This document shows, one piece after another, positions 1,779 to 27,663 of a stretch of DNA of 35,484 bases. The position numbers and the translations under genes are program-made. Positions within the stretch are counted from its first letter, which is position 1; every line of letters begins with the position of its first letter. The stretch is from Clostridium sp. (GTDB lineage: Bacteria > Bacillota > Clostridia > Lachnospirales > Lachnospiraceae). The DNA is taken from NCBI GenBank assembly GCA_023664605.1, contig JAMPFF010000031.1:1-35484 (forward strand), given 5' to 3'. The notes beneath the pieces are model-generated. The model worked only from the letters and a program-made list of their open reading frames with translations, had not been told where the DNA came from and did not search any database.

Positions 1779-1931
1779 CCTCCATGTCAGAGCAACTTGT
1801 TGCGATGACACCGCGCCGAGAATCTCAAATTCTCGGCTGCGCTCAAGGCATATTTGAGGCTCTGACTCATAATTGCAGTCTGAACAAGTTCAGACTTTGA
1901 AAAAATAAGCTATCGAGCTTATTTTTCAATC
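1779..1931 (-). repeat. dispersed intergenic structured element, copy 1
   Basis: Read on the minus strand: an AT-rich hairpin (1898-1929), an extra palindrome unique to this copy (1877-1896), then an outer stem 1859-1866 with 1786-1793 (GTCAGAGC/GCTCTGAC) enclosing a 23-bp hairpin at 1815-1837. The element ends directly in the GGAGG ribosome binding site of the downstream permease. Copies 2 and 3 have the same architecture. It separates the two paralogous permease genes, about 20 nt after the upstream stop codon. Confidence 0.9.
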
Positions 1932-1951
1932 TAATTCCCATTTCCTTTCTC

Positions 1952-3172
1952 TTATCTGCCGCTTACCTGATAGTTCCGATAAGCGCGCATCCCCAAATAG
2001 ATAAAAAGCGTTCCAAGCAGAATATATAAAAGCGGCGCCGCCTGCCATATTGTAAGATAACCGCCGAAGAACGAAAGCAGCCTGAAGCCCAGAATCCTAT
2101 CCGTATTAAGAAGTCCCCCCGGCAGATAGTCCCACAACTGCGCTGCGACCCGAAACTGTGCCGGAATACCCACAAAAAACGGAATCATGCTGATACCAAA
2201 TACTGTGGCAAGCGTTGCCGCCGCATTGCCGAAAAACTCCGAAAGCATCATCACGAACGCCGCAGTCAGTAAAACGGCAAGAATCATCAGCGCATACATC
2301 ATGATAACCGCCGTTCCTGCGCTTAGCTTTAACGGATAATCGACCGCATGTATCTGAACCGCAGCCCCAAAACCGTCCGCACCGTATATGCCTAACGCCG
2401 TAAGTATAATGATAACCGTCATTCCAAACGTACTAATCAGCGTAAAACTCATGCCCGCCGCCACTTTGGCAAAATAGAGCCGCCGCTTGCCAAAACGGCT
2501 GCTCAAAAGAAGCTGGTCGGTCCGCCAAATATGTTCTTTTGTAAAAATGTCGGATAAACATATTGCGCAAAAAAGTAACATCATAAACGCAATCGTCTGT
2601 GCGGAAGAAATCAGTTTCCAATACCCATCCGCATATGTAAAGACAAACGGCTTGGCAATCGCCTCCGCTTTTTTCCTCCAATACGCTTTCTCCCCCTCCG
2701 TCAAAAAAACGCTGTTATACGCCGCTTCCCTGGTTTTCTCAACAGCGTCATAGAACGCCTCTTCGTCCGCCTCCCACGCGCATATGTCCACGATATCGGA
2801 TATATTAGAAAAGCGCATGACTTTTCGTACAATCTGAAATATCTGGCTATAGGGGCGGGCATAGGTTTGATATTCGTCCGTTAAACTGTAACGTGCTTCC
2901 TCCGTCGGCACTTTGGCGTATGCCGCCTGCATCTCTTCTATCAGTTCCAAATTGATTTCTCTGCCGTTTAGTTTCCTTGCATACTCCCTGTCCTTCTCCA
3001 TCAAATGGTAATGGGTATCATAAACTACGCCGTCCACATAATATTTTCCGCTCACATCGGAAGTAACAGACATAAGGGAAAGCGCGAAGATAACCGCTCC
3101 CGCAATCCAGACTATTTTACGCCGCATTAACTTCTTCATCTCATAGCGGTATAACACACCAAAGTTATTCAT
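1952..3172 (-). CDS. ABC-2 type transporter permease (first of two paralogues)
   Basis: Integral membrane component of the same transporter as its neighbours. It has a TM segment near residue 20-40, then a large hydrophilic loop of about 150 residues containing YAKVPTEEARYS and aromatic-rich stretches, then about five TM segments. The start is the ATG at 3172 (MNNFGVLYRYEMKKLM). It overlaps the ATPase stop codon by 8 nt and has GGAGGGCGG just upstream, so translation is probably coupled. Longer in-frame starts lie inside the ATPase gene and were not used. Shares the RTDQL motif and a YQVSGR end with the second permease, indicating tandem duplication. Confidence 0.88.
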   Translation of the reverse strand: MNNFGVLYRYEMKKLMRRKIVWIAGAVIFALSLMSVTSDVSGKYYVDGVVYDTHYHLMEKDREYARKLNGREINLELIEEMQAAYAKVPTEEARYSLTDEYQTYARPYSQIFQIVRKVMRFSNISDIVDICAWEADEEAFYDAVEKTREAAYNSVFLTEGEKAYWRKKAEAIAKPFVFTYADGYWKLISSAQTIAFMMLLFCAICLSDIFTKEHIWRTDQLLLSSRFGKRRLYFAKVAAGMSFTLISTFGMTVIIILTALGIYGADGFGAAVQIHAVDYPLKLSAGTAVIMMYALMILAVLLTAAFVMMLSEFFGNAAATLATVFGISMIPFFVGIPAQFRVAAQLWDYLPGGLLNTDRILGFRLLSFFGGYLTIWQAAPLLYILLGTLFIYLGMRAYRNYQVSGR

Positions 3173-3920
3173 TCGTCCGCCCTCCCGCTTTTTTTGCGTC
3201 GTCAGAGCGCTTTGTTTCCGATTGCGCCGTATCAAACTGCTCCAGATAAAACGCCTCCAAATCCTCATCGCTACCATCCCATTTATCATGATAAATCAAG
3301 CATCCGTCCTTCATTATCAAAATATCACTGTCCGCGATATGCTCAATATCCGATACGATATGGGTAGATAATAAGACAATGTTATCCTCTCCCAAATCCG
3401 TAATCAGATCCCTGAAACGCACCCTTTCTTTCGGGTCCAGCCCCGCCGTCGGCTCATCCAAAATCAAAAGGTCGGGTTCATTTAAAAGCGCCTGTGCGAT
3501 ACCGAGTCTTTGCTTCATACCGCCGGAATATGTCTTTATCTTCTTTTTCGCCGCATCCTGTAACGCTGTCAGTTCCAGCAGTTCTTTTGCTTTGCGTTTT
3601 GCATCCGCTCCGGAAAGTCCTTTTAACGCCGCCATATAGAGTAGAAAATCCATTCCCGTAAATTCGGGATAATAACCGAAATCCTGCGGCAGATACCCAA
3701 GTCTGGCGCGATATGCTTCTGTCGATACGTCCAGTCCGTCCAAAGTGATTGTGCCGCTTGTCGGTTTCAAAATACCGCATATCATCCGCATTAACGTTGT
3801 TTTTCCCGCGCCGTTTGCTCCCAAAAGTCCATGCACCCCCACGCCCAGATGCATCGATATACGGTCTACCGCTATCTTATTTTTATACTGTTTTGATACT
3901 CTGTCTATTGTAAGTTCCAT
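3165..3920 (-). CDS. ABC transporter ATP-binding protein
   Basis: Nucleotide-binding subunit, 251 residues. Walker A GANGAGKT is at 34-41, the Q-loop in YLPQDFGYYP near 77-86, signature YSGGMKQR at 131-138, Walker B LLILDEP at 151-157, the D-loop AGLDPKER and the switch histidine in STH at 187. The FGYYPEFTG segment and single-NBD length fit the bacitracin/lantibiotic-export or Nod-type ABC-2 families. It overlaps the upstream membrane-protein gene by 16 nt and the downstream permease by 8 nt. GGAGGAG about 6 nt ahead of the ATG supports the start. With two permeases it should form the complete transporter. Confidence 0.95.
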   Translation of the reverse strand: MELTIDRVSKQYKNKIAVDRISMHLGVGVHGLLGANGAGKTTLMRMICGILKPTSGTITLDGLDVSTEAYRARLGYLPQDFGYYPEFTGMDFLLYMAALKGLSGADAKRKAKELLELTALQDAAKKKIKTYSGGMKQRLGIAQALLNEPDLLILDEPTAGLDPKERVRFRDLITDLGEDNIVLLSTHIVSDIEHIADSDILIMKDGCLIYHDKWDGSDEDLEAFYLEQFDTAQSETKRSDDAKKAGGRTNE

Positions 3921-4624
3921 GCTAACTCCTCCGTCTCCTTAATCGTCCGGCGCCACTCTGCACCGAATATAAAAATTAATAAGAAAAATCCTGCCGCCCA
4001 CCATGAAAAATATCTCTCATGATACACAATACCGTTGCTTCCCAATATAAAAAAAGTAACGCTCACTAACGCCGCTATCCCCGCGCACACATAGCCGGAC
4101 TCTTTTCCGTGAATGCGTCTTGCCGCCACAAGTCCCGGTATAACCGTCAAAAGATATGGCACTGTCAAATACACACCCGCCTGTAACGGTCCATACATTT
4201 GATTTCGCAGACTGACAGGTATCATGCAGCAAATCAGTAGAAAATGCACTCCCCCAAGAATCCCCATTCTGGCAAGCATAACGCTTCTTAAAGAAAATCT
4301 GGACGCCATCTCAAGTTCCTCCATGCCATATGCCGCCGACCTGATATTCTCCGTTGCGGCGGTAAGCGCGATAAAAGGCGTCAGCGCCGAAAAAACAACC
4401 AGTATATTTCTTTCCACAAACGCCGCCGCTTTTAATACAATGCCTAAAACTAAAACAGATACTATCCAGACCCATTTTTTCATATACACAGCCTGTAATA
4501 ACATAAATTTCATATGGCTTATCTGCGCTTTGGGAAGTTTTTTTAAAAAGCCGTCTTTTCGCAGCGGTTCGGGCGCATCAAAGGCTGCCTGTATCATTTT
4601 TTTAATATCTTTACTGATTCCCAT
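3905..4624 (-). CDS. membrane protein between sigma factor and ABC genes
   Basis: About 239 residues: a cytoplasmic N-terminus of ~40 residues (KKMIQAAFDAPEPLRKDGFL) followed by about six hydrophobic segments and a short charged C-terminus. I do not recognise a catalytic motif. Position directly after a sigma factor and before an ABC ATPase suggests it is a transporter subunit or a membrane regulator acting on the sigma factor. The second is inference: there is no zinc-binding anti-sigma motif. I chose the ATG at 4624 because GGAG lies 7 nt upstream. The ATG at 4642 has only a distant GAGG. The 3' end overlaps the ATPase start. Confidence 0.75.
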   Translation of the reverse strand: MGISKDIKKMIQAAFDAPEPLRKDGFLKKLPKAQISHMKFMLLQAVYMKKWVWIVSVLVLGIVLKAAAFVERNILVVFSALTPFIALTAATENIRSAAYGMEELEMASRFSLRSVMLARMGILGGVHFLLICCMIPVSLRNQMYGPLQAGVYLTVPYLLTVIPGLVAARRIHGKESGYVCAGIAALVSVTFFILGSNGIVYHERYFSWWAAGFFLLIFIFGAEWRRTIKETEELAWNLQ

Positions 4625-4658
4625 ACAACCACTCCATTCCATAAAATTTAGTTTATCC

Positions 4659-5147
4659 TCATTCTTTTAGACACTCTTCCAGCTTTTTTAATGCCGTTTT
4701 CAATTTCCGATAAACGCTGAAACGGGAAAGTCCAAATATCCTGCAAATCATATAAATTGGTTCCTCATTTACATACCGCAGCATAAGAAGTTCCCTCTCC
4801 TCTTCCTCTAACTTCGCCAGCGCAAGCTTTAGCGAAACAGCGTTAAACATCTTTTCCTCCGCTCCGCTATCTTCTATCTGCTCTTCCTCCAATGCAAGTA
4901 ACGGTTTCTTTTTTCGATACTCGTCAATGCATAAATTATGGGCAATCGTATACAGATACGGTAGAACATGTGCGGCATGAAGGTCATTTCCGTGGTTTAG
5001 GAAACGAAGAAACGTCTCCTGTGTAATATCTTCCGCCAGTTCTCTCTGCTGCAGTTTGCAATAGCAATAACGGTATATCTTATCATAATGTCCTGCCAAA
5101 TCCGACCCCTGCCCGGAACCTTTGTCCGAAACGTTATTTATGGACAC
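4659..5147 (-). CDS. RNA polymerase sigma factor, sigma-70/ECF-like
   Basis: 162 residues. Region 2 spans about 25-55, with the core-binding/-10 recognition segment YCKLQQRELAEDITQETFLRF and IAHNLCIDEYRKKK. Region 4 spans about 108-158, with LEEEERELLMLRYVNEEP followed by a helix-turn-helix (IFGLSRFSVYRKLKTALKKLEE). The linker between them is short and acidic, as in ECF sigma factors. It starts with GTG at 5147; AAAGGAGG lies 8 nt upstream. It is the first gene of the ABC operon, so it probably directs transcription of the transporter, perhaps of itself too. No classical anti-sigma gene is adjacent. Confidence 0.88.
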   Translation of the reverse strand: MSINNVSDKGSGQGSDLAGHYDKIYRYCYCKLQQRELAEDITQETFLRFLNHGNDLHAAHVLPYLYTIAHNLCIDEYRKKKPLLALEEEQIEDSGAEEKMFNAVSLKLALAKLEEEERELLMLRYVNEEPIYMICRIFGLSRFSVYRKLKTALKKLEECLKE

Positions 5148-5218
5148 GCTTCAAGCCTCCTTTCACCTTGTATAACGGATGACGCCCCGCTTATGTGCGG
5201 GCTGTTATTATTTTAGCC

Positions 5219-5251
5219 AAAAAAACTTCGACGCCGATAACGCGCCGAAGT
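5219..5251 (-). terminator. rho-independent terminator after the HAD hydrolase gene
   Basis: On the minus strand an 11-12 bp GC-rich stem (ACTTCGGCGC... pairing with ...GCGTCGAAGT, 5225-5251) is followed by seven T residues (5225-5219). It sits about 60 nt after the HAD stop codon and before the sigma gene, so it separates the two operons. Confidence 0.85.
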
Positions 5252-5308
5252 CTGGTATTTTTACTAATGATGCCTTTTTATGCCGATTCTATGCTGATTT
5301 CATACTAA

Positions 5309-5911
5309 TTAATCTACGCCGAGTTTTTTTAGTTCCGCTCTCGCCTGTGCCTGATTTTCAAAGTGAATCGTATGAATGCCGAACGCTTCCGCCCCTTTCA
5401 GGTTTCTTTCCGTATCGTCCAGAAAAACGCATTCCTTCGGAATCAGATGATAACGATTTATCAGAATATCGTATATTTCCGGCATCGGCTTAATCACCTT
5501 TTCCCGGTATGATAAAATCCCGCCGTCCATATAAGGTAAAAAATCCAGTGCATCCGCGCAGTCTCTTTCCGCCTTGGTTCCGAAATTGGACAGATACAGC
5601 GTTTGATAGCCTTTTTGCTTTAATTCCTGTATCCAGGGAATCGCATAGTCATTCTTTACCACCATGCCCGTTACGTTAGCAAGGCATCTGCGGATATCCT
5701 CCCCTATCTCCGGGTCGTTTTTGATAAGCTCCTGCAGCACTTCCTCATCCGTAAGGACGCCCCTGTCAATCTCGTTCCACTTTTCGCTTCTGACCGTCGC
5801 GTCGGCAAGCCTTTCCAATATTTCGCCCGTATAGCCGAAACGCATATAGTGTTCTTTCCATTTAAAATCGGCCAGCACATTGCCGATATCAAAGATAATC
5901 GTCTTTATCAT
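5309..5911 (-). CDS. HAD-superfamily hydrolase, subfamily IA (YihX-like)
   Basis: About 200 residues. Motif I is FDIGNVLADF at the N-terminus, with the nucleophile Asp and the G-N replacement typical of YihX-like enzymes. Motif II is YLSNFGT, and motif III/IV is KPMPEIYDIL ... CVFLDDTERNLKGAEAFG. The cap is a small helical domain. The family dephosphorylates small phosphorylated metabolites such as sugar phosphates; the substrate here is unknown. I prefer the ATG at 5911 (MIKTIIFD): GGAG is 10 nt upstream. It is only 1 nt from the ATG at 5920. The start lies inside the end of the LysR gene (about 20-nt overlap), so the two are translationally coupled. Confidence 0.9.
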   Translation of the reverse strand: MIKTIIFDIGNVLADFKWKEHYMRFGYTGEILERLADATVRSEKWNEIDRGVLTDEEVLQELIKNDPEIGEDIRRCLANVTGMVVKNDYAIPWIQELKQKGYQTLYLSNFGTKAERDCADALDFLPYMDGGILSYREKVIKPMPEIYDILINRYHLIPKECVFLDDTERNLKGAEAFGIHTIHFENQAQARAELKKLGVD

Positions 5912-6818
5912 AGTTTCCATACTCCGTTTCTCTTTTTTCTTCTACTAATGCAAGCAAATTCCTTGCCGCGGCCGACATGGGATTTTTCTTATCCGTCACC
6001 ACGCAGAAATGCCTCTTCGGTATAATCTTATTAAAGCGCAGTTCAAACAACTGCCCCGAATCCAGATATTCCCTTGCAAAATCCCTGACAACGCAGCCCA
6101 CCCCCAGATTACGCAGGGCAAACTGAATAATCATATCGCTGGTGGCAAGTTCAAACTCCGGATGAATCGTTACCCGGTTTTTCTGTAAAAACTGGTTCAT
6201 ATTATTCCGCGTGCTTGTTGCGCCCTCTAAAAAGATGGTCGGTAGATTCTCCAGTTCCTGCAAATCCAACATCCTGTTCTTATAGGGAATAAACTTTCTG
6301 CCCGCCACAAAAACATCCTCTATCTCCCGCACAATGATTGACTGCATAAAAGGCTGCTCGTCAAAGGGCGTACTCACAACGCCGAAATCAATCTTGCCTT
6401 CCCTCAAATTATGCAGCGTTTCCGGCGTCGGCGCATTTGTGACGATAACTTTAATGTCCGGATACTGCTCATGAAAAGATTCCAAAAAGGGAAGCAGATA
6501 AAACTGCAATGTCATGTCGCTTGCACCAATCCGAATTTCTCCCAAATCCAGATTGAGCATCTGTTTTAGCTTTTTTTCACCCAATGCAATCTGCTCATAC
6601 CCTTTGGCAACATAGTTAAAAAGCAAGGCTCCCTCCTGGGTTAAACGCACGCCCTTTGACGCCCTTGTGAACAGCTTCGTTCCAAGCGCCGTCTCAAGCT
6701 GCTTTAAAGACTGGCTGACCGCCGGCTGGGAAATCGCCAGTTCATCCGCCGCCGCAGTCAGGCTCTGGCTGCGCGCCACATGATAAAAGACCTTATAATA
6801 TTCTAAATTATGAATCAT
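5889..6818 (-). CDS. LysR-family transcriptional regulator
   Basis: 309 residues. An N-terminal winged helix-turn-helix covers 1-60 (SQSLTAAADELAISQPAVSQSLKQLETALGTKLF), followed by a linker helix and a periplasmic-binding-protein-like effector domain (LGEIRIGASDMTLQFYLLPFL ... GVGCVVRDFA). Ligand not predictable. Start at 6818 (MIHNLEYYKVF) because GGAG, contributed by the repeat element, is 6 nt upstream. The ATG at 6830 is the ATGGAG of the ribosome binding site itself. It overlaps the HAD hydrolase downstream. A dispersed repeat separates it from the Cof-type phosphatase gene upstream. Confidence 0.93.
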   Translation of the reverse strand: MIHNLEYYKVFYHVARSQSLTAAADELAISQPAVSQSLKQLETALGTKLFTRASKGVRLTQEGALLFNYVAKGYEQIALGEKKLKQMLNLDLGEIRIGASDMTLQFYLLPFLESFHEQYPDIKVIVTNAPTPETLHNLREGKIDFGVVSTPFDEQPFMQSIIVREIEDVFVAGRKFIPYKNRMLDLQELENLPTIFLEGATSTRNNMNQFLQKNRVTIHPEFELATSDMIIQFALRNLGVGCVVRDFAREYLDSGQLFELRFNKIIPKRHFCVVTDKKNPMSAAARNLLALVEEKRETEYGNYDKDDYL

Positions 6819-6819
6819 A

Positions 6820-6972
6820 CTATTCTCCATGTCAGAGCAGCTTGCTGCGATGACACCGCGCCGAGAATCTTAAATTCTCGGCTGCGCTCAAAGCATATTT
6901 GGGGCTCTGACCCAAATTGCCGATTGAGAAATAAGCTATCGAGCTTATTTTTCAATCTATTCTCCATGTCAG
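6820..6972 (-). repeat. dispersed intergenic structured element, copy 2, with 16-bp direct repeats
   Basis: Minus-strand order: near-perfect 36-bp AT-rich hairpin (6922-6957), then an outer stem 6904-6911 with 6831-6838 enclosing a 23-bp hairpin at 6860-6882, then the GGAG of the LysR gene. The element is bounded by an exact 16-bp direct repeat, 6820-6835 and 6957-6972. The distal repeat contains the stop codon of the upstream phosphatase. Removing one repeat plus the element leaves a compact stop-GGAG-ATG junction. Confidence 0.92.
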
Positions 6973-7802
6973 TTAATTAATTTTAAGATATGTCGGAGCG
7001 CATAGGCAATCCCGTCCTCGTCATGATGTTTTGTGATAAAATCGGCCGCCGCCTTACATGTCTCGGAAGCGTTTTCCATCGCTATCCCGCAACCCGCATA
7101 CCGTAACATATCCACATCATTATCCGCGTCTCCAAACGCCGCCGTCTCCTCTCGGTTTATCCCTAACAGCTTGGTAATAAAGACAAGCCCCGCGCCCTTT
7201 CCGGCGTTTTTGTCGGCAATTTCCACGAGATGCTGTACAGATGATGTTATGTAAACTTCATCCGTCGCCTCCTGTACTTTCTGCCAGACTCTTTTTTTCA
7301 TCTCTTCGCCATTTACGATAATATCCATGCTGTCCAGATGGCGCTTATGTTCTTTAATGAACTTCATAATATCATCCTGCATATGCCTCGTTGCTCTCAC
7401 ATATGTAAGTGTCTGCGGCGTCGCCCCGAACCGAAGCGGCTCCGCCAGATATCTTTTATCCGCATAGGCGACGCCGTCTATAAACGCCTCGTATGTCACA
7501 TCTTCGCCTTTCGTCGCACGCATAACGGCTTCTATCGCCTGTTCGGAAAGCTGATAACGCTTCAGGCATTTCCCCGTCGGCAGATGATACATCGCCGCCC
7601 CGTTTCCAGTAATCGCGTATTCAATGCCGGGTAATGATAACATATCCTGCGGTAACGTATCAAGCGCGCGTCCGCTGGCAATCACAACATGAATCCCGGC
7701 CGCCATGGCTTTTTCCAACGCTTCTTTATTCTGCTTGGAAAGCCTACCCTCTTTATTTAATGTTGTCCTGTCTAAATCAAGCGCAATACATTTCACTGCC
7801 AT
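6969..7802 (-). CDS. Cof-type HAD phosphatase
   Basis: About 277 residues. Motif I is ALDLDRTTL, with the nucleophile and acid/base aspartates but R where most relatives have G. Motif II is VIASGRA, motif III has the conserved Lys of KNAGKGAGL, and motif IV is FGDADNDVDMLRYAG. A large C2-type cap lies between motifs II and III. The family acts on sugar phosphates, flavin mononucleotide or pyridoxal phosphate; which one is not visible. I chose MAVKCIALD at 7802 by family N-terminus. The ribosome binding site is poor for both this ATG and the ATG at 7826, so the start is uncertain. The TGA stop lies inside the direct repeat of the intergenic element. Confidence 0.9.
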   Translation of the reverse strand: MAVKCIALDLDRTTLNKEGRLSKQNKEALEKAMAAGIHVVIASGRALDTLPQDMLSLPGIEYAITGNGAAMYHLPTGKCLKRYQLSEQAIEAVMRATKGEDVTYEAFIDGVAYADKRYLAEPLRFGATPQTLTYVRATRHMQDDIMKFIKEHKRHLDSMDIIVNGEEMKKRVWQKVQEATDEVYITSSVQHLVEIADKNAGKGAGLVFITKLLGINREETAAFGDADNDVDMLRYAGCGIAMENASETCKAAADFITKHHDEDGIAYALRHILKLIN

Positions 7803-7921
7803 CTCGCCGCAGCACCCTTTTCTCATCCTGTAAATTTATATCTGCTATCTGTTTCTTTTTCATGACTAAATATATCAAATTTTCCACTGTTTGCCTAGTC
7901 TTTTTGCTCCCTAAAAAAATC

Positions 7922-7950: not shown

Positions 7951-7963
7951 ATTTGTTGGAAAA

Positions 7964-8858: not shown

Positions 8859-8875
8859 AAACGCAGGAAACGGAT

Positions 8876-9985: not shown

Positions 9986-10034
9986 CTTATTGTACCTATC
10001 CTTTCTTTATTTATAAATCTTTTTTCTTATCGTT

Positions 10035-16134: not shown

Positions 16135-17100
16135 TTATTTAAAAACCGTACACGCCATATCCTTTTGCAGAGAATCCCACACAGGCATGGAGACATTTGC
16201 AGACACTCCCGCTTTACTCCTGCGCAGTTCCTCCCACGCTTCGTCAAGCATCGTTATCTCGCTGAGCGCATGAGCGCAGTGGTCGGTAACCGCCAGACGC
16301 CCTAACGGCGTTTTGCACATCACAAACATCACCGCCCGCCAGAACATCCGCATTGCTTTACCTGTAAATAATCCCTCATCGTTTTCGGGTTTTATGGGAT
16401 AGCCTAACGCTTTCAAAAATACGAATCCCTCCGCAGTGGCGTCCACCATTGCTTTCCGCTGGGCTTTTGATGCCTGTGGCAGCTTGCAGTCAACGGCATA
16501 GGAAACATAAGCAAGCGGAAGTATCTCCGCCATATGGCATTTCAGCCACGCATCCATCTGATTTTCCCATGTCAGGCTGCATCCCGATTTGGAAAATGCT
16601 CTGTATATGCGCTTCTTAAAGCCGGAGGACAGTTCCCCGTCCTTTCCTCCTACCGTGAGGTGCGCGCGGACATGGATGCTGATAACCTGCCCGTTCTCCC
16701 GTCTGCCTCCCGCCATCATAAAACCAAACGCGGCTTCTTTTTTGACCGGGGAACCAGACTGCGCCGCCGCTTCCGTTTTTTCCGCCCACGGATTATTGCC
16801 TATAAAAACCACATAGCGGCTCACATTCGCAGAAATTGCCGGCAATATATCCGCCACCTGGTCTGCCTGCATGACAACAAAAATAATATCATATTTATCA
16901 GCCGGAGCCAGACTGCCCGTAATTTTTATTTTATCTGTCGTCGTTTTTCTTTGCAGATAATGGCGTATGATAAGCCCTCTCTTTTCAAGGGTATCTTTCC
17001 ACGCGCCTCTGGCAAGCAGAGTTACGTCGTTTCCGCCTTTCTTTAACACATGCGCCAGTTCGCAGCCAATTACGCCCGCGCCGTAAACAAGTATTTTCAT
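16135..17100 (-). CDS. ketopantoate reductase (ApbA/PanE)-family oxidoreductase
   Basis: 321 residues. N-terminal Rossmann fold with the nucleotide motif GAGVIG (7-12) and LLAR as in PanE. FVVMQADQV replaces the usual VK-x-Q/T loop, and a helical C-terminal domain follows (YAVDCKLPQASKAQRKAMVDATAEGFVFLKALGYPI). True PanE has Lys/Asn/Glu catalytic residues; K is seen in WLKCHMAEILPL, where relatives have K-x-x-x-N-x, so activity on ketopantoate is doubtful. A different keto-acid or drug-like substrate is possible. GGAGG is 8 nt before the ATG. The gene is divergent from an ATC-hydrolase-family gene, and its promoter carries three GTTAGY-N4-RCTAAC sites. Confidence 0.82.
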   Translation of the reverse strand: MKILVYGAGVIGCELAHVLKKGGNDVTLLARGAWKDTLEKRGLIIRHYLQRKTTTDKIKITGSLAPADKYDIIFVVMQADQVADILPAISANVSRYVVFIGNNPWAEKTEAAAQSGSPVKKEAAFGFMMAGGRRENGQVISIHVRAHLTVGGKDGELSSGFKKRIYRAFSKSGCSLTWENQMDAWLKCHMAEILPLAYVSYAVDCKLPQASKAQRKAMVDATAEGFVFLKALGYPIKPENDEGLFTGKAMRMFWRAVMFVMCKTPLGRLAVTDHCAHALSEITMLDEAWEELRRSKAGVSANVSMPVWDSLQKDMACTVFK

Positions 17101-17133: not shown

Positions 17134-17182
17134 TCATTTCTCCACTTCTCCTGTAAACATTTCATGCTATGTTTACAGATGT

Positions 17183-17211
17183 ATGTTAGTATGGACTAAC
17201 TCGTTTGTCAA
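17183..17211 (-). promoter_or_regulatory. reductase promoter with an operator in its spacer
   Basis: Minus strand TTGACA (17211-17206), 17-nt spacer, TAACAT (17188-17183). A perfect GTTAGT-N4-ACTAAC palindrome occupies 17185-17200, overlapping the -10 and spacer, so binding would block RNA polymerase. The arrangement is nearly base-for-base the same as at 28322-28350. Confidence 0.75.
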
Positions 17212-17219
17212 GTGATTTA

Positions 17220-20055: not shown

Positions 20056-21789
20056 TTATAATTTCCAACCTACAGCAAGCTTACGGGCATCAACAAAACG
20101 TCTGTAGATTCCATTCTGTTGCATCAAGTCTTCATGTCTGCCCTGCTCCACAATCCGCCCCCGGTCAACCACAAGAATCTGGTCGGCATTACGCACTGTT
20201 TTCAAACGATGGGCAATCATCAGAATCGTTTTCTCTCTGGTCAGCGCATCAATGGCTTCTACCAACTCCCTTTCATTTTCCGGGTCCACATTCGCAGTTG
20301 CCTCATCCAGAATAATAATCGGCGCGTCTTTCATAATGGCGCGGGCAATGGATATCCGCTGTTTTTCCCCACCGGAAAGACTGGCGCCTCCTTCTCCAAT
20401 TTTCGTTTCGTACCCCTGGGGAAGCTGCATAATAAAATCATGGCAGCAGGCGGCTTTTGCCGCTTCAATTACCCGTTCCATACTCGCTTCCGGCTGTCCG
20501 AAACGGATATTGTTAGCTATGGTATCCTGGAACAAATAGACATTCTGGAATACGAAACTGAAATTTTTCATCAGACTGTCATAGCTGTAGTCTTTCACAT
20601 CCATTCCGCCTAACTTTACGCTGCCCTCCTGCACGTCCCAAAATCGGGAAATCAGATGGCATAAAGTTGTCTTACCGCCGCCGCTTGGACCAACAATAGC
20701 CGTAGTCGTCTTCTCCGGGATATGTACGGAAATCCCATCAATAATCTTCCGTTCATCATAAGAAAAACTGATATTTTCCACATCAATGTCAAAATGCTGC
20801 GGCGCGGCTTCCTGTCCGCTGATATCCATCGGCTCTAAATCAAGAATTGCCTGCGCCTGGTCAACGCTTAAATCAACGGCACGCAGCAGGGAGGAATAAT
20901 TTCCGGCGCTGTCAAGGCTGGAATAGATAAGAAAAGAACTAATCAACATTATAACACAGGTCAAAAGTTCCATGCTCCCGTCAAAATAAAAATACAGAGA
21001 CAATACGCACATGACAACCCCTGTCATCTTCGTGACAAAGTTCTGCAGCGTCATATAAGGAATAAAACGAAACTCCATCCTTGTATTGACTGCCACGCTC
21101 TCATCAATGGCTTTTTTTAATTTCTCACTCTTATCCCCTATCAGGTTATAGGCTTTCACTTCCGAAATACCCTGAATGTATTCCAGTACCTTTTCCACCA
21201 GTCCCGCATCCGCAGCTATCTTTTTCGGCGCCATCTCTCCGGATGCCCTTTGCAGTCCGCTGTTTACAAGAAAAAACAGAAGAAGCCCCGCCAAGACTAC
21301 CAAGCCGATACGCCAGTCATAAACAAGCAGCATCGCAGCAATTAAAACCGTAGTCAGGATTCCGGATGTGGTCATCATTACCACGCGGGTAGCGATATTG
21401 CCCAGATTCTCCATCGTGTTCGTCGTCACGGATGTAATATAACCAAGACTGTTATGATTAAAATATCCCATTGGCAGATAGCGGAGATGCTCTGCTATCT
21501 CGATTCTCTTGCCCGCACAGGTATCATAACCAGCTTCCGTCTGCAGCATGGTGGAACGGTATTTTACCACAGAACCGCCTGCAATGCTAAACAGCATGAT
21601 ACAAAAACTTGCTAAAATGACTTCGTTTGTCATGTGCCCCTCTATAACTGCCCCCAGCATAACTGTAATCGCCGGAATCTTTAAGGCTTCAAAAAAGGCA
21701 AGCAGTACACCGAATGCTATAGACAGATAAAATTTCTTTTTATTTTCACCGCCGCAAAAATCAAAAAATTTCTGTAATATTTTAAGCAT
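20056..21789 (-). CDS. ABC exporter, membrane-ATPase half-transporter (second subunit)
   Basis: 577 residues. An N-terminal type IV (exporter) membrane domain of six TM segments (~20-300) is followed by a nucleotide-binding domain with Walker A GPSGGGKT 367-374, signature LSGGEKQR 471-478, Walker B IIILDEA 491-497, D-loop NVDPENE and the switch His in IAHRL. It pairs with the upstream gene, which it overlaps by 8 nt, to form a heterodimeric transporter. Similar pairs are annotated as multidrug exporters; some with the DPENE D-loop are siderophore-related (Irt/YbtPQ type). Substrate not deducible. Promoter and operators lie upstream of the first subunit. Confidence 0.93.
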   Translation of the reverse strand: MLKILQKFFDFCGGENKKKFYLSIAFGVLLAFFEALKIPAITVMLGAVIEGHMTNEVILASFCIMLFSIAGGSVVKYRSTMLQTEAGYDTCAGKRIEIAEHLRYLPMGYFNHNSLGYITSVTTNTMENLGNIATRVVMMTTSGILTTVLIAAMLLVYDWRIGLVVLAGLLLFFLVNSGLQRASGEMAPKKIAADAGLVEKVLEYIQGISEVKAYNLIGDKSEKLKKAIDESVAVNTRMEFRFIPYMTLQNFVTKMTGVVMCVLSLYFYFDGSMELLTCVIMLISSFLIYSSLDSAGNYSSLLRAVDLSVDQAQAILDLEPMDISGQEAAPQHFDIDVENISFSYDERKIIDGISVHIPEKTTTAIVGPSGGGKTTLCHLISRFWDVQEGSVKLGGMDVKDYSYDSLMKNFSFVFQNVYLFQDTIANNIRFGQPEASMERVIEAAKAACCHDFIMQLPQGYETKIGEGGASLSGGEKQRISIARAIMKDAPIIILDEATANVDPENERELVEAIDALTREKTILMIAHRLKTVRNADQILVVDRGRIVEQGRHEDLMQQNGIYRRFVDARKLAVGWKL

Positions 21790-23572
21790 TTACCACCCCT
21801 CCAATCTCTGTCTGACTATCCGTACTGTCTTTTACCGATATATGGGCTTCCCACATATCCCTGTACAGACCGTTTCCCGCCAAAAGTTCTTCATGAGTGC
21901 CCTGTGCGTTCAGTTTTCCATTTTTTACCACAAAAATCCGGTCAGAATCCGCTATGGTAGAAAGTCTATGGGCAATAACAATCTGTGTCTTTCCTTTTAC
22001 CAGTTTTGCTACTGCGGCTTGTATCACCGCTTCATTCTCCGGGTCGGTATACGCAGTGGCTTCGTCCAGAATCACAATCGGCGCATCTTTCAACATCGCA
22101 CGGGCAATGGCAATGCGCTGACGTTCCCCGCCGGACAGATGAGAGCCTGCTCCGCCCGCAATCGTATCATAACCCTTTTCCAGTCCCATAATAAACTCAT
22201 GGCATCCGCTGCGTTTTGCAGCTTCCTCAACCTCTGCATCAGTCGCGCCCTTTTTTCCCATACGGATATTCTCCCGAATGGTATCGTCAAATAAATAATT
22301 ATCCTGAGAAACATATGCTATCATCCGGTTATATTCTTCCAACGGAATTTCCCGAATATCCACACCTCCCACAAGGATACTCCCGCCGTCCACATCCCAC
22401 AGGGACGCTATCAGTTTCGCCAACGTAGATTTTCCGGAACCGGAAGGACCTACAATAGCATTCACAGTACCCTCTCTGATATCCAGACTGACGCCATGAA
22501 GCACTTCCTTTTCATGGTAGCCGAAGCGGATATTTTCCACTTTGATGTCATAATGTTTAGGCAGTCTGCCTGCCTTTTCCGGTCTATGCAGTTCTTTCTG
22601 TGTCAGGATAGCAGCCACTTCGCCGATAATCGACTGCAGCGCGTGCAAATCATCGCTATAAGACATACATGTGATAAGCGGCGCAATCAATCCTACCGAA
22701 ATCATGATAATCAAGATAAAATCAGCCGGGGAAAGACTTCCGTTTTTTATGAGCAGACCTCCGATTGGCAATACGGCAACCATCGTACTCGGCATGACTA
22801 ACATACCTATCGTAAAAGGCACATTGCAGGTGCGCATCCAGTCCACAAAACAGGCGGAGCCTTCTTTTGCCGCTGTGACAAAACGCTCATAAGAATTCTT
22901 TGCCTTGCCAAACGCCTTGATTACCTCAATGCCGTTTATGTATTCCACTGCCACATCATTAAGCGCTTTTGTCTTGACAATGGTATTCTGATAGTATTTA
23001 TCATAACCAATCATCATTCCCATATAGCAGAACATTCCAACAGGCACTGTCACAAGCGAGACAAGCGCCATACGCCAGTCAATGGCAAACAAATATATGA
23101 CAAGCACTGCAGGCGCAAGCAGATTGGAAGTAAATTCCGGCAATATATGGGCAAGCGTTGTTTCTATGCTGTCTACCCGTTCCACAATCGTACTTTTCAG
23201 ACCGCCGGACGGCGTATCCAGGACTGTTCCAAGCGGCAGCCTCGCCAATTTATCCAGCAGACGCTTGCGGATATTTCCCAGCACATAAAATGTCGCCTTA
23301 TGGGAAAGCGATGTGGAAATTGCCTGAAATACCACTTTTCCCGTCCATAAAACAGCCATGAAAAGACAGTCCGTCATATAAGCGGACACCTCCCGGTTTC
23401 CTTCCACGAGTCTTTGAATCATATGACCCATAATCAAAAATGGCGCCACAGCGCACAACACTCCCATAGCAGCCGTTACCACACTGGCAATATACAATAT
23501 CTTCCGCTCTGCTGCAAATTCAAATATCCAACTCCATGCGGAACGTGTTTTTTCTTTTTTCAATTCAACCAC
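21782..23572 (-). CDS. ABC exporter, membrane-ATPase half-transporter (first subunit)
   Basis: 596 residues. Six TM segments lie in ~25-310 (coupling helices near LARLPLGTVLDTPSGGLKSTIVERVD). The nucleotide-binding domain has Walker A GPSGSGKS 375-382, signature LSGGERQR 479-486, Walker B IVILDEAT 499-506, D-loop YTDPENE and switch H535. Both ATP sites of the heterodimer look complete. A 30-residue polar tail follows. Start is uncertain: the GTG at 23572 is only 1 nt from GAGGAG, while the TTG at 23563 is 10 nt from it. The pair is transcribed from the 23667-23695 promoter, flanked by two GTTAGT-N4-ACTAAC operators, so it should belong to the TetR regulon. Confidence 0.93.
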   Translation of the reverse strand: MVELKKEKTRSAWSWIFEFAAERKILYIASVVTAAMGVLCAVAPFLIMGHMIQRLVEGNREVSAYMTDCLFMAVLWTGKVVFQAISTSLSHKATFYVLGNIRKRLLDKLARLPLGTVLDTPSGGLKSTIVERVDSIETTLAHILPEFTSNLLAPAVLVIYLFAIDWRMALVSLVTVPVGMFCYMGMMIGYDKYYQNTIVKTKALNDVAVEYINGIEVIKAFGKAKNSYERFVTAAKEGSACFVDWMRTCNVPFTIGMLVMPSTMVAVLPIGGLLIKNGSLSPADFILIIMISVGLIAPLITCMSYSDDLHALQSIIGEVAAILTQKELHRPEKAGRLPKHYDIKVENIRFGYHEKEVLHGVSLDIREGTVNAIVGPSGSGKSTLAKLIASLWDVDGGSILVGGVDIREIPLEEYNRMIAYVSQDNYLFDDTIRENIRMGKKGATDAEVEEAAKRSGCHEFIMGLEKGYDTIAGGAGSHLSGGERQRIAIARAMLKDAPIVILDEATAYTDPENEAVIQAAVAKLVKGKTQIVIAHRLSTIADSDRIFVVKNGKLNAQGTHEELLAGNGLYRDMWEAHISVKDSTDSQTEIGGVVNA

Positions 23573-23642
23573 ACTCCTCTACAATTTTATTTCCGCAAAC
23601 AACGAGCATATTTGCTGATGTATCCATCTTGTAGTTATTGTA

Positions 23643-23658
23643 GTTAGTTTCAACTAAC
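23643..23658. promoter_or_regulatory. operator palindrome GTTAGT-N4-ACTAAC downstream of the ABC exporter promoter
   Basis: Perfect palindrome about 9 nt downstream of the -10 box, in the start-site region. Confidence 0.8.
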
Positions 23659-23666
23659 TATAAAGT

Positions 23667-23700
23667 ATAATATCATTATATAGAGTTAGTGTCAACTAAT
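23667..23700 (-). promoter_or_regulatory. ABC exporter promoter with second operator, inside the end of the MATE gene
   Basis: Minus strand TTGACA (23695-23690), 17-nt spacer, TATTAT (23672-23667). A GTTAGT-N4-ACTAAT palindrome at 23685-23700 (one mismatch) covers the -35 box. The promoter overlaps the last codons and stop (23676-23678) of the MATE gene. It gives the exporter its own control. Confidence 0.8.
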
Positions 23701-25043
23701 TTATTACTATTGCTTACCGCCAAAATCACCGCCGACAGCACAAACGACAGAATATCGGAAACAGGCTGGACGATATACAGACCGAAATCCCCCATTACCG
23801 CTCCCAAAACAAACAGCAAAGGAATATAGAAAATCCCTTGTCTTGCTATGGAAATAACCAGCGCTGTCATGTATTTACCGCAATTTTGCATATACATACT
23901 CGATACCGCATAGAACGCCATAAACGGAAACGAGATGCACTGATACCTTAAAATGACGGCGCCTGTCCGTATTACCTCATCATCCGCCACAAAAACGCCG
24001 ACAAGCGGCTTTGCAAATACCGCAAAGCACACTGCGGCTATTACCATAAGTCCGGTTCCTATGCCGACAGTAAGACGGAAAGCTTTGCTTACGCGGTCAT
24101 ATTTTTTCGCTCCATAATTCATTGCGCAGATTGGCTGAAAACCCTGTCCGAAGCCTATCATTATCATATATCCTAATGCCGCCACCCTTGACGAAACGGT
24201 AAATGCCGCAATCGTGGCTTCTCCGAAATCCGCCGCCGCGACATTGAGCAGAACGGACGCAATACTGGTTATCCCCTGACGGGAGAAATTCGGCGCACCG
24301 CCTGCAAGAATATGATACAGTCTGCCATCACTAAAATTACATCTGTTAAACCTCACAGGGATATTCCCGTGCCGATAAGAAAGAAACGCCAGCGCTACAG
24401 CGCCGATTATCTGTCCGATTAACGTCGCAAGTCCCGCGCCAAGCATTTCCATATGTAATAAAATGATTAATATCGGGTCTAAGATGATGTTTGTCAAAAT
24501 TCCCACAAGCAGTCCAATCATTCCATCTTTCACATTTCCGCACAGCCTGAGCTGATTATAGACCGTTGTGGCAAATAAGGAGAACGGAATGGATACTAAC
24601 ATTACCCTGAGATATTGGACGGTATATTTCATAAGGTTCTTTGATGCGTTTCCGCCAAGAAGCGCGGCAAGCGGCTCTATCCATATCAGCATTGGTATCA
24701 TCAGGGTTATTCCCGCAGCCAAAGCCATGACAACACCGTTAGAGGACACAATCTCCGCTTCTTGTCCGTTACTTTCTCCAAGCTTTCTGGACATAACATT
24801 ACCGCTGCCATAACCGAACCAAAATCCTACTGCCTGAATAAAGGAAACAAACGCAAACACAATTCCAACGGCGGCGGTCATGCTTTTATTGTTCATTTTT
24901 CCTATCCAGAATGTATCGGTAAGATTGTATAATGTTGTCACCAGCATTCCGATGATTGTGGGAATTGCAGTTTTTATTAAGAGCGGCAAAAGCGGTGCGG
25001 TAATAATCCGCTCGCGGCGCTGCTGTCTTGTTTCCTTAGCCAA
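23676..25043 (-). CDS. MATE family efflux transporter
   Basis: 455 residues, twelve predicted TM segments in two homologous halves. N-terminal MATE signatures are LLIKTAIPTIIGMLVTTLYNLTDTFWIGKM and AVGFWFGYGSGNVMSRKLGE. The second half has GGAPNFSRQGITSIASVLLN and GFGQGFQPICAMNYGAKKYDRV. It exports drugs or metabolites in exchange for Na+ or H+; the NorM/MepA-like branch fits. It starts with TTG at 25043, overlapping the stop of the phosphotransferase gene, with GGAGAGG upstream. It is therefore coupled to that gene and controlled by the TetR operon promoter at 28322-28350. Its 3' end contains the promoter of the ABC exporter. Confidence 0.93.
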   Translation of the reverse strand: MAKETRQQRRERIITAPLLPLLIKTAIPTIIGMLVTTLYNLTDTFWIGKMNNKSMTAAVGIVFAFVSFIQAVGFWFGYGSGNVMSRKLGESNGQEAEIVSSNGVVMALAAGITLMIPMLIWIEPLAALLGGNASKNLMKYTVQYLRVMLVSIPFSLFATTVYNQLRLCGNVKDGMIGLLVGILTNIILDPILIILLHMEMLGAGLATLIGQIIGAVALAFLSYRHGNIPVRFNRCNFSDGRLYHILAGGAPNFSRQGITSIASVLLNVAAADFGEATIAAFTVSSRVAALGYMIMIGFGQGFQPICAMNYGAKKYDRVSKAFRLTVGIGTGLMVIAAVCFAVFAKPLVGVFVADDEVIRTGAVILRYQCISFPFMAFYAVSSMYMQNCGKYMTALVISIARQGIFYIPLLFVLGAVMGDFGLYIVQPVSDILSFVLSAVILAVSNSNKLVDTNSI

Positions 25044-27516
25044 CTTTCTCTACCTCTCCTTTGGAACCGTTGACGCGTATCATCTCACCGTCTTTATAAC
25101 GGGTCGTTGCAAGTCCTACGCCCAGTACCGCCGGAATGCCATATTCCCGCGCTACGATAGCCGCGTGGGATAATGCCGCTCCCGTATCGGCAACTACCGC
25201 CGAAGCGACCTTAAAAAGCGGCGTCCACTCCGGGTCTGTATAAGGGCAGACAAGGATATCGCCCTTTTGTAGTTTGCCAAATTCTTCAGGATCGCGGACA
25301 ATACATACTCTTCCTACCGCTTCGCCGCTGCTGCCGCCTACGCCCGTCAGCACATCGCCCGCTTTTCCACTCTCGAATACGCAGAGTTTGCTACGTTCCC
25401 AGACTTTTTGGGCAAGTGTGCGCTTCTCTTTCCGGCGGGCGATGATTTCTTTGTATTTATCAGAATATCCCTCTTTACACATTGCCGTGAACTCATCAAG
25501 AAACAGATAGGCTATGCTGTCCGCAAAATCTTTGCTGCCCGTACAGAGAACAGCGGCGCGTTCCAATATTCTTTTGGAATAATAGAAAACCGTTTCCCAC
25601 TGATACTGGCTTTCCTCCCTCGCAACATGGAAAGCGCGGATGCAGTCTATCTGCTCTTTTACAGCAGGAAATTTCTTCTCGCCGCACACCTTGCGCACCT
25701 GCGCCATTAACGGAGCGAATTTCTCCTCATCCGGCGCGGCGGGAGTGGTTATTAACGGCTTTATGATGTGTAAAAGGCGGTCGGGATTCTCAATAAACGA
25801 CTTCGCATAAATACAGTAACAGTTATAGTCGGACTTCATACCGTGTTTTTTCATAAATGCCCTAAACTCTATATCAATATCAGGGAAATCGCGGCAGATA
25901 CGCTCATAACTGTCGCCGCACATTACCGCCGCGGTAAGCGCTTCGTCCGCACGGATTTTATCTGCAAGCGCCGCAATGTCACGGGTCACGATTACCGTTT
26001 TGTATTCAAGATTATAGTAAAGGTCGTATGCCGTAAGGTCAGGAGATATTTTCTTCAGTATTTTTTCAATACGCATATTGGCAAGAACTCCGGGGAAAAG
26101 CGCATACTTAAAACGCGCGTAAGCGATACGCTGAACAAGCCTGTACGCCTTATCTATGTACTCGCCGCATTGTTCCAAAGAAAGTTTGTCAAACGGCAGC
26201 TTCGCCATTTTATCTACGCTCTTCTGGTATTCCTTCAGATAGTGTTCGCACTTTTCCCGACAACCGGAAAGGTCTTTTAGTTCCTTAAGCAGACCAAATA
26301 TCCTGCATATCTTAGCGTTTATTTTTTTATCGTTAGGCGGCAGAATCATGATTCCGTCGTCATCAATCTGCGGCTCCATGGAAATGATAAGACCGACTTC
26401 TGAAAAAATCTGCGCTTTCTGGTTGTTGACCGAACCGCAGAAGCTATGGTCGAGAGGCAGCTGCGAAACGGGCATTTTTTCAAGCAGGAACGCAAAGTTT
26501 TCACGCAGAGCGCCGGTTATCTTGTTTTTGCTGATGTATTTTTCTATTTCGGCTTCATCGACATTGTCCGCAAGCGTAGTGATTGCCCGCGCCTGTAAAA
26601 TATAAACGTTTTCTCCGCGGATTGCCCACTCAATATCCATCGGACATCCATAGTAATTTTCCACTGCGACAGCCGTCTGGCAGAGTGTCCTGATTTCATT
26701 TTCTGACAGGCACAATGCATTGCTTTTCTCAGGGGAAACAGCTTCTTCCCTCGTGCCGTTTTCGGCATAAATAATCTCTATTTCCTTGCTGCCGATAACG
26801 CTGGACTTGATATTCCCGTCTTTATCGCAGATAAACGTGTCCGCCGTCACCTTGCCGGAAACGACAGCTTCGCCGAGTCCGTAGGAAGCGTTCAGTTGCA
26901 TTTCGTCACGGTTGTTATTTACCGGATTTGCCGTAAAAAGCACGCCCGCTTTCTCACTCTCTACCATTTCCTGCACAACGACGGCAAGCGCAACGCTCTT
27001 CTGGTCATAGCCCGCAGTCTGGCGGTAGCTTACCGCGCGGTTTCCCCAGAGCGAAGCATAGCAGCGGATAATGTTTTCGCAAAGCGCATCGATTCCGACA
27101 ACATTCAGATAGGTTTCCTGCTGTCCTGCAAAACTCGCGTCGGGTAAGTCCTCCGCCGTAGCGGAAGAACGCACCGCGACACGCAAAGCGTCGTTTCCCG
27201 CATTTTTGCAGAGAATGAGGTAGTTTTGGCTAACCTCCTCCCGCAAAGAAGCGGGCATACTTCCCGCTGTGATAAGCGCACGAATGTTTTCCGCCGCAGA
27301 GAATAGTTTCTGCTCATCTGCGCCCGCATCGTCAAGGAGTGCGGTTATTTTTTCATCGATATGATTTTCTGTAAGGAAACTGCGGTATGCGTCCGCCGTT
27401 ACCACAAATCCGGATGGAACAGGAAGCCCCGCCCGGGTCATCTCACCAAGATTGGCGCCTTTACCGCCTGCAGTCATAACATCGTCTTTGCCAATTTCAT
27501 TAAATGTACGAATCAT
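25036..27516 (-). CDS. rifampin phosphotransferase-like enzyme (PEP-utilising/PPDK family)
   Basis: 826 residues. An ATP-grasp domain (1-~320) begins MIRTFNEIGKDDVMTAGGKGANLGEM and contains RSSATAEDLPDASFAGQQETYLNV and PMDIEWAIRG. A long, mostly helical middle domain (~330-720) follows, then the phospho-histidine swivel domain at the very C-terminus, with GAALSHAAIVAREYGIPAV; the histidine is about residue 784. PEP synthase and PPDK have this domain in the middle followed by a PEP-binding barrel; that barrel is missing. The order ATP - substrate domain - His matches rifampin phosphotransferase (Rph), which inactivates rifamycins with ATP. Whether rifampin is the real substrate is unknown. Start at 27516 (GGAGG 5 nt upstream). 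Operon with TetR and MATE. Confidence 0.85.
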   Translation of the reverse strand: MIRTFNEIGKDDVMTAGGKGANLGEMTRAGLPVPSGFVVTADAYRSFLTENHIDEKITALLDDAGADEQKLFSAAENIRALITAGSMPASLREEVSQNYLILCKNAGNDALRVAVRSSATAEDLPDASFAGQQETYLNVVGIDALCENIIRCYASLWGNRAVSYRQTAGYDQKSVALAVVVQEMVESEKAGVLFTANPVNNNRDEMQLNASYGLGEAVVSGKVTADTFICDKDGNIKSSVIGSKEIEIIYAENGTREEAVSPEKSNALCLSENEIRTLCQTAVAVENYYGCPMDIEWAIRGENVYILQARAITTLADNVDEAEIEKYISKNKITGALRENFAFLLEKMPVSQLPLDHSFCGSVNNQKAQIFSEVGLIISMEPQIDDDGIMILPPNDKKINAKICRIFGLLKELKDLSGCREKCEHYLKEYQKSVDKMAKLPFDKLSLEQCGEYIDKAYRLVQRIAYARFKYALFPGVLANMRIEKILKKISPDLTAYDLYYNLEYKTVIVTRDIAALADKIRADEALTAAVMCGDSYERICRDFPDIDIEFRAFMKKHGMKSDYNCYCIYAKSFIENPDRLLHIIKPLITTPAAPDEEKFAPLMAQVRKVCGEKKFPAVKEQIDCIRAFHVAREESQYQWETVFYYSKRILERAAVLCTGSKDFADSIAYLFLDEFTAMCKEGYSDKYKEIIARRKEKRTLAQKVWERSKLCVFESGKAGDVLTGVGGSSGEAVGRVCIVRDPEEFGKLQKGDILVCPYTDPEWTPLFKVASAVVADTGAALSHAAIVAREYGIPAVLGVGLATTRYKDGEMIRVNGSKGEVEKVG

Positions 27517-27520
27517 TGTC

Positions 27521-27663
27521 TCCTCCATTCCGGAGCGTTTCCGCGACGGGGCGACGCAAATATCAGATTTGCGTCTGCCATCAAGGCATATTTGTGACGC
27601 TCCGGCACAAATTGCCGATTGAAAAATAAGCTATCAAGCTTATTTTTCAATCTTTATCTCCAT
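27521..27663 (-). repeat. dispersed intergenic structured element, copy 3
   Basis: Perfect 36-bp AT-rich hairpin (27617-27652), outer stem 27597-27605 with 27530-27538 (CCGGAGCGT/ACGCTCCGG), inner 23-bp hairpin 27553-27575. The outer and inner stems differ from copies 1 and 2 almost completely but still pair. The hairpin encodes the last residues (KIEK) and stop of the TetR gene, and the other end supplies GGAGG to the phosphotransferase gene. Confidence 0.9.

Follow-up and report, generated by a model that had tools for sequence, protein, structure and literature searches.

The dispersed element described here, which is about 140-150 bp long and in general non-coding, is best explained overall as a structured leader that is mobile, inserts into translation-initiation regions and leaves the gene behind it translatable; from comparison of its copies, we consider this reading probable. 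The junctions, the copy numbers and the loci occupied in one genome and empty in another show that it has repeatedly moved into such regions, nearly always in the sense orientation, landing between the native Shine-Dalgarno (SD) sequence and the start codon. According to this explanation, the element would insert a few bases upstream of the start codon and downstream of the native SD and, transcribed within the mRNA, would form hairpin A, P1, P2 and, directly next to an SD of its own, the 3′ hairpin P4/P3. Alternatively, the P1 loop could pair with the 3′ strand of this last hairpin as a pseudoknot. The element's own SD and a fold able to leave this SD open would make insertions before housekeeping genes tolerable, and the structure would therefore be preserved. 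Less certainly, the competing helices, together with a third and weaker pairing, between CUC and the SD, may tune initiation downstream. A stronger version, in which the element homes to start codons, inserting only between SD and AUG and in sense, and in which a two-state RNA leader re-supplies and gates the SD as a mobile translational switch spreading through gut Lachnospiraceae, is tentative and seems somewhat doubtful to us.

Within the window, i.e., the whole analyzed stretch of 35,484 nucleotides, the covariance model R1, built from 16 copies of the window's own genome with P1, P2 and P3/P4 as structure and the pseudoknot excluded, gave exactly three matches. These are the three copies with a common minus-strand layout that had been pointed out in the original prediction, each at the position given there (Table 1). 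The stem changes quoted in it are likewise present, with GTCAGAGC/GCTCTGAC vs. CCGGAGCGT/ACGCTCCGG in the outer stem and CCGAGAAT vs. GACGCAAAT in the inner arms. Their interpretation has to be revised, since the "outer stem" thought to enclose a hairpin is really the P1 loop pairing with the 3′ strand of P3/P4, here called the pseudoknot, and P1 itself had been missed. In copy 2, the left SD core belongs to a 16-bp direct repeat, CTGACATGGAGAATAG, which also closes the element. Copy 3 carries an in-frame ATG inside the element's SD (ATGGAGGAGACAATG, 27514-27528), so that the list of open reading frames begins the PPDK-domain gene four codons early.

Table 1. Positions of the element copies and of one empty site in the window.
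Copy or site	Feature	Position	Strand	Basis
Copy 1	native SD region AAAGGAAATGG and spacer, left junction	1932..1948	-	filled/empty comparison with G233
Copy 1	AT-rich hairpin A	1897..1931	-	sequence and family layout
Copy 1	extra hairpin module AGTCTGAACTTGTTCAGACT, absent in copies 2 and 3	1877..1896	-	sequence, family layout
Copy 1	P1 hairpin, imperfect in this copy	1847..1876	-	alignment
Copy 1	P1 loop TCAGAGC, 5′ pseudoknot strand	1865-1859	-	pairing analysis
Copy 1	P2 hairpin with bulged A	1812..1841	-	alignment and pairing
Copy 1	P4/P3 hairpin	1785..1810	-	pairing
Copy 1	GCTCTGA within P4/P3, doubling as 3′ pseudoknot strand	1793-1787	-	pairing
Copy 1	SD (GGAGG)	1779..1783	-	sequence
Copy 1	downstream start codon ATG	1772-1770	-	alignment with G233
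Copy 2	left SD core GGAG	6962..6965	-	sequence
Copy 2	hairpin A	6922..6957	-	sequence
Copy 2	P1 hairpin	6892..6921	-	sequence, alignment
Copy 2	P1 loop TCAGAGC	6910-6904	-	sequence, alignment
Copy 2	P2 hairpin	6857..6886	-	sequence, alignment, pairing
Copy 2	P4/P3 hairpin	6830..6855	-	alignment, pairing
Copy 2	3′ pseudoknot strand GCTCTGA	6838-6832	-	alignment, pairing
Copy 2	SD core GGAG	6825..6828	-	sequence, domain scan
Copy 2	start codon of LysR-type gene	6818-6816	-	sequence, domain scan
Copy 3	hairpin A	27617..27652	-	sequence
Copy 3	P1 hairpin	27585..27616	-	sequence, alignment
Copy 3	P1 loop CCGGAGCGT	27605-27597	-	sequence, alignment
Copy 3	P2 hairpin	27550..27579	-	sequence, alignment, pairing
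Copy 3	P4/P3 hairpin	27530..27549	-	alignment, pairing
Copy 3	3′ pseudoknot strand ACGCTCCGG	27538-27530	-	alignment, pairing
Copy 3	SD (GGAGG)	27522..27526	-	sequence
Copy 3	start codon of PPDK-domain gene	27516-27514	-	alignment with G219/G205
Empty site	site without element, filled by a copy in the relative G233	9989..10034	-	locus comparison

Elsewhere in the window, two promoter regions (17147-17218 and 28286-28357, minus strand), situated before an ApbA-like gene (16135-17100) and a TetR-family gene (27640-28299), both carry TTGACA and a GTTAG..CTAAC palindrome. They also share a pre-RBS hairpin whose arms differ yet pair (TGTAAACAT/ATGTTTACA vs. TATGAACA/TGTTCATA), and another GTTAGTTACTACTAAC is located at 17133-17118. 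These regions look like putative operators of this TetR-family protein.

Read along the sense strand from 5′ to 3′, the element family is ordered as follows: SD-like sequence of the host gene, hairpin A, P1, P2, P4/P3, the element's own SD, spacer and start codon. Hairpin A, e.g., GTGTGAAAAATCACACTGATGTGCTGATTTTTCACAC or GATTGAAAAATAAGCTCGATAGCTTATTTTTCAATC, had been described as nearly constant; in the wider family its sequence differs between genomes while pairing is kept, and in some copies (copy 1 of the window, L096, L107, L067, and L155) it is followed by a second hairpin of variable sequence. P1 comprises about 11 bp (e.g., GGCAATTTGTG/CACAAATaTGCC), with a bulged A in some types, and its loop reads TCAGAGC in type A, CCGGAGCGT in type B and TCTGAGCG in type C, other loops also occurring. 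Most copies have a bulged A in P2. In types A, B, and C, P4/P3 has the form NNN-UC-stem-UC-NNN, with GCUCUGA, ACGCUCCGG, and CGCUCAGA as variants of the 3′ strand. The element had been assumed to end before a ribosome-binding site, but it normally contains one, usually ATGGAG(G/A), followed by a short spacer and the start codon. Its location is the SD-to-AUG interval, which is more specific than the stretch from a stop codon to the next ribosome-binding site given in the original prediction. Tandem copies (L110 and L340) were found as well as a mosaic copy (L014/L049), whose left half is of type B and whose right half is of type C. Five 5′-truncated copies, all from the window's own genome (L168, L170, L172, L173, and L174), retain the 3′ SD end, and L048, also 5′-truncated, keeps its 3′ end.

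The fold was examined in an alignment of 102 copies (100 loci; seven from the window's genome) found by R1 at E ≤ 1e-8, which was fitted to P1, P2, and P3/P4 but not to the pseudoknot. In these three helices 96.9% of the cells were paired, compared with at most 43.1% after sliding by 1-3 columns, and double changes occurred at 28 of the 33 pairs. The pseudoknot, with 105 double-change cells, was paired in 91.1% of its cells; sliding by 1-3 columns left no more than 43.8%. Compensatory change and a structured nucleic acid, both proposed in the original prediction, are thus supported, and the stem changes exceed chance. Corrected mutual information placed the best 12 of 4656 column pairs all within helices, while the best two pseudoknot pairs took ranks 20 and 32. 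Against a tree null, which was our own simplified simulation of alignments on a tree and not R-scape, 13 pairs were significant at E < 0.05. Eleven of these belong to P1, P2, and P3/P4, for which covariation is thus above the phylogenetic background, the generic test for a structured RNA; the remaining two connect the loop of P2 with its top pair.

Taken singly, no pseudoknot pair was significant against the tree null: the best five of the nine pairs had E values of 0.87 to 6 and the other four were without covariation. The helix sum of the pseudoknot, in contrast, was 207.9, compared with never more than 58.8 for the same helix in 150 simulations and with a maximum of 96.4 for stacks of nine in 60 simulations (0/60). 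Among 3081 stacks the pseudoknot ranked 19th, the best 12 being registers of P1, P2, and P3/P4. In the alignment, the pseudoknot is thus supported at the level of the whole helix and not pair by pair. An exchange test of the three strands, covering 98 of the 102 copies, gave loop-to-3′-strand pairing of 273/294, compared with 222 ± 12 when strands were swapped between genomes (maximum 252 in 1000), and the P1-loop triplet was identical to the P4 triplet in 46 of the 98 copies. The three strands have changed together because the 3′ strand pairs with the P1 loop as well as with the 5′ strand of P4/P3. Next to the SD there is thus a single strand claimed by two helices; on these statistics, we read the pseudoknot and P3/P4 as alternatives that are both conserved.

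Mispairs in the four helices, read on the sense strand, comprised 108 G-T and 41 A-C cells (binomial p ~4e-8, relatedness ignored), the G-T excess being concentrated in P1 and the pseudoknot (P2 12:7, P3/P4 11:9). Such an excess is expected for RNA and implies that selection for pairing acts on the sense strand, in the simplest case on the mRNA. For the pairing of CUC with the SD, which would sequester the latter, the mean energy was -3.34, compared with -3.04 ± 0.21 when tails were exchanged between genomes, so that coevolution of this pairing did not reach significance (p 0.06). In computed folds of 68 copies, the SD was unpaired with a value of 0.34 in the free ensemble, 0.68 with P3/P4 forced and 0.51 with the pseudoknot strands reserved; the joined flanks of 49 copies, lacking the element, also gave 0.51. 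A second folding set yielded 0.33 for the element's SD (90 copies) vs. 0.58 for the left SD (79 copies). The values with P3/P4 forced suggest that the P3/P4 state would open the SD and that losing P3/P4 would tend to close it. The unconstrained predicted ensemble tends to hide the element's SD, which, if considered alone, does not favor a leader that keeps translation open.

The position of the element was analyzed in 95 copies, which remained from 133 pooled rows with enough upstream sequence (antisense palindrome hits included) after removal of 36 rows without a clear hairpin A, one antisense hit and one duplicate. A left SD core was present in 66 of the 95 copies, compared with 5-16 of 95 in eight windows placed 20-250 nt further upstream; in the left-spacing count, 28 of 95 were without it. 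A right SD core was found in 84 of 95, and in 61 of the 81 copies having both this core and an ATG the distance between them was 6 nt. By a loose test for which there is no background figure, an open reading frame of at least 60 codons started at the 3′ end in 93 of 102 copies, a shorter one in seven and none in two, with some of the copies lacking a frame of at least 60 codons running into another hairpin A. Relative to the downstream gene, copies are nearly always in sense orientation. The assumption that all copies lie inside operons agrees with 76 of the 95, which have a co-directional upstream open reading frame of at least 100 codons ending within 300 nt, but not with eight that have a divergent upstream frame only and 11 that have neither. 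Of ten proteins scanned for domains, two are encoded by neighboring genes and eight by genes directly downstream of copies in the window's genome, those of the three window copies and of five others; 27 downstream frames of this genome had been translated. The eight downstream genes contain FabA-like, tRNA pseudouridine synthase, semialdehyde dehydrogenase, RuvA, PfkB, PPDK, LysR, and ABC-2 domains, i.e., unrelated Pfam families, and no functional coherence was found among these eight. In G060, a copy with its core at 701-800 is preceded by a T-box leader (L094:878-1162), which scores 99.2 bits and exceeds the gathering threshold; about 40 nt separate the end of this leader from hairpin A of the copy.

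A coding function was rejected as general explanation, since a stop codon typically ends the frame of type-A and type-C copies after 14-16 codons, and since length changes of a single base preserve the pairing yet break the frame. Many copies nevertheless have an NTG codon (often NTG AAA AAT) 4-7 nt past the left SD, and in many type-B copies the frame is open for about 44-48 codons or more. In L033, L038, L041, and L043, the frame from the NTG at hairpin A crosses the element into the downstream gene (400, 247, 329, and 544 codons, respectively), a possible N-terminal fusion as judged from the reading frames.

Searches for further copies, as proposed in the original prediction, were successful within the Lachnospiraceae. 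In the window's genome, a DNA search gave 27 matching places, six of which are reverse-strand hits of the palindromic hairpin A, and R1, by which 150 of 1788 candidates were scored, found 42 matches (E ≤ 0.01). With the own genome counted each time, matches were present in 30 of 41 genomes at the genus level (1-90 each), in 29 of 200 at the family level and in 25 of 392 at the order level, five of the latter belonging to a second family. At the phylum level the own genome was the only one of 398 with matches, the 397 others giving none. For the family, order, and phylum searches, 10-19 candidates per genome were scored under stricter filters, and their counts are lower bounds. Among the 80 stretches listed of at least 117 carrying the exact core motif, most are metagenome-assembled Acetatifactor, Eisenbergiella, Roseburia, Lachnospira, Fimimorpha, and unnamed Lachnospiraceae, and some are titled Clostridium, Eubacterium, Clostridiales or otherwise. 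Contigs of JAMPCN01 (L288, L302, and L315) titled "Bacillus sp." have element positions as in G233, a genome of the window's genus, and this title is probably a misnomer. Several copies are situated at contig ends (hits at base 22-31 in L059, L245, L259, and others), so assembly is probably interrupted where copies are near-identical, and the real number of copies may exceed that counted. One 22-base core pattern had no exact match in a single scan of viral contigs, and a plasmid search gave no match to the element. Three short unannotated fecal "Bacteriophage sp." records, possibly bacterial fragments, match 43-92% of the query; the unannotated record MT838414.1 ("Bacteriophage sp.", fecal, 5.3 kb) contains an element-like match at 1710-1842 with 74% identity over 92% of the query.

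At three loci, one genome carries the element and a relative lacks it, and the differences run both ways. Copy 1 is absent from G233, where the surrounding locus is 90-96% identical and reads SD-spacer-ATG. Copy 3 is absent from G219 and G205 (surroundings 79-87% identical), which had no R1 match in the genus-level search; at the same site G233 has a different, degenerate variant, read by eye, which complicates this comparison. Conversely, a copy of G233 is absent from the window at 10034-9989, and copy 2 is present in both. Within eight genomes, nearest copies are alike at medians of 90-97% and their flanks at 43-52% (global alignment, no background figure). The left flank and the right end of a copy have copy-specific stretches in common that include the SD, e.g., in L150, L122, L142, and L146. 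Their mean longest length was 6.25, compared with 5.42 ± 0.16 when permuted within genomes (0/2000; 83 of the 95 copies, from genomes with at least three). The common stretch is variable in length, and the occupied and empty loci show no fixed-length duplication; it looks as if insertion had duplicated or exchanged a portion of the SD.

How the element moves can be weighed against several mechanisms. Movement at the DNA level, as a MITE or REP/IS200-like transposable element whose hairpins serve a transposase as single-stranded DNA ends and whose RNA fold is incidental, seems unlikely. The strict orientation to an SD-like target and the similarity of left flank and right end are reminiscent of the cleavage sites of IS200/IS605, and the copy-specific stretches including the SD speak for this mechanism. 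By eye, however, no terminal inverted repeats were seen, the start (GTGTGAAAA/GATTGAAAA) and the end (GGAATGGAGATTA) not being complementary, and the G-T excess points to the sense strand, although sense single-stranded DNA would give the same excess. Moreover, Y1_Tnp, the domain of the IS200/REP-type enzyme that would suit the hairpin-processed DNA element also considered in the original prediction, had no match in G000 (42 element matches; 95.5% complete) or in G060 (at least 17 element matches; estimated 100% complete), and it is carried by 12 of the 29 element-positive genomes compared with 115 of the same 200. RVT_1, with no match in G000 or G060 either, is carried by 16 of the 29 compared with 115 of the 200. 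The two obvious mobilizing routes are therefore without support in these two genomes, and neither IS200/REP mobilization nor a resident reverse transcriptase is supported for copy-rich genomes without the respective domain. The lack of an RVT_1 match in both genomes also weighs against a SINE-like RNA intermediate, in which an element RNA ending in the SD would pair with the target SD and be reverse-transcribed in trans. Such a route would fit the 5′-truncated copies, the rather constant 5′ boundary at hairpin A and a 3′ junction whose place in the SD is variable, but a truncation bias is also expected if loss of the 3′ SD harms the downstream gene and because the search model needs the core; we give it very little probability.

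Ectopic gene conversion or template switching between SD-flanked repeats would need no dedicated enzyme and is in agreement with the SD-like sequence on both sides of the elements and with the tandem and mosaic copies. As the shared SD stretches of about 6-12 bp are short for conversion and the conserved fold is left unexplained, it is rather improbable. Similarly improbable is a cis-regulatory RNA serving a regulon, as a riboswitch-like leader or one that binds a protein, which would be inherited and owe its spread to selected co-regulation and not to mobility of its own. A conserved fold with competing helices beside an SD is typical switch architecture, and the copy at L094 follows shortly downstream of a T-box leader. 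Against it, the eight scanned downstream genes share no pathway, the number of matches ranges from 0 to 90 within one genus, copies are alike within a genome and different between genomes, and orthologous sites are occupied or empty between relatives of about 90% identity.

Small dispersed bacterial repeats are usually regarded as parasitic palindromes tolerated by chance. For the mobile leader proposed here, site, orientation, own SD, and covariation all concern initiation, so that the colonization of housekeeping expression signals without silencing them becomes testable. The copies would provide a naturally diversified collection of portable translation leaders. The element would also be a candidate for inclusion in Rfam as a new family and would cause start codons to be miscalled in Lachnospiraceae genomes. 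Comparison with Rfam 15 gave no match to a described RNA family: none in the window at the gathering score and none overlapping an element at E ≤ 5 in five loci or at E ≤ 1 in 20 loci. A literature search, with most subscription journals outside its reach, found no paper naming the element among those listed. It works like a mobile leader and is a member of no family tested. REP sequences and RAYT/IS200 transposases are similar in their dispersed hairpins and a possible asymmetric target, whereas no Y1 transposase domain was found in two copy-rich genomes. Translational riboswitches and leaders likewise have mutually exclusive helices beside the SD; the element differs from them in having no Rfam match, unrelated downstream genes, and repeat-like behavior.

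Like the element, the pneumococcal BOX sequences are modular small dispersed repeats in transcribed regions with predicted RNA stem-loops, according to the passages on them (PMC3049150), in which one BOX lies between the T boxes of a trp leader and BOX is judged parasitic rather than having a particular role. Unlike the element, they have terminal inverted repeats, target-site duplications, and different modules, and the SD-to-AUG interval is not mentioned in these passages (PMC3049150). The text of a survey of stem-loop repeats, which tabulates Clostridium perfringens and C. tetani, returned neither "Lachnospir-" nor "Shine-Dalgarno" in a term search (PMC2267715). ERIC/IRU, NEMIS/Correia, and the Caulobacter CIR repeats are, in the sections describing them, also about 100-155 bp long and largely intergenic, and ERIC and NEMIS are reported to affect the mRNA with which they are co-transcribed; CIR RNAs have separate arms with a linker, as the element does, while the other repeats fold through pairing of their two ends (PMC2229807). 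The covarying pseudoknot, the own SD, and the SD-to-AUG location set the element apart from ERIC, NEMIS, and CIR as described there. Rickettsia palindromic elements (RPEs) are, in the same account, comparable as mobile structured repeats at functional positions that leave the gene usable; they enter reading frames, RNA genes, and intergenic regions, whereas the present element enters translation-initiation regions (PMC2229807). By what these passages describe, BOX, ERIC, NEMIS, CIR, and RPE are the nearest in kind.
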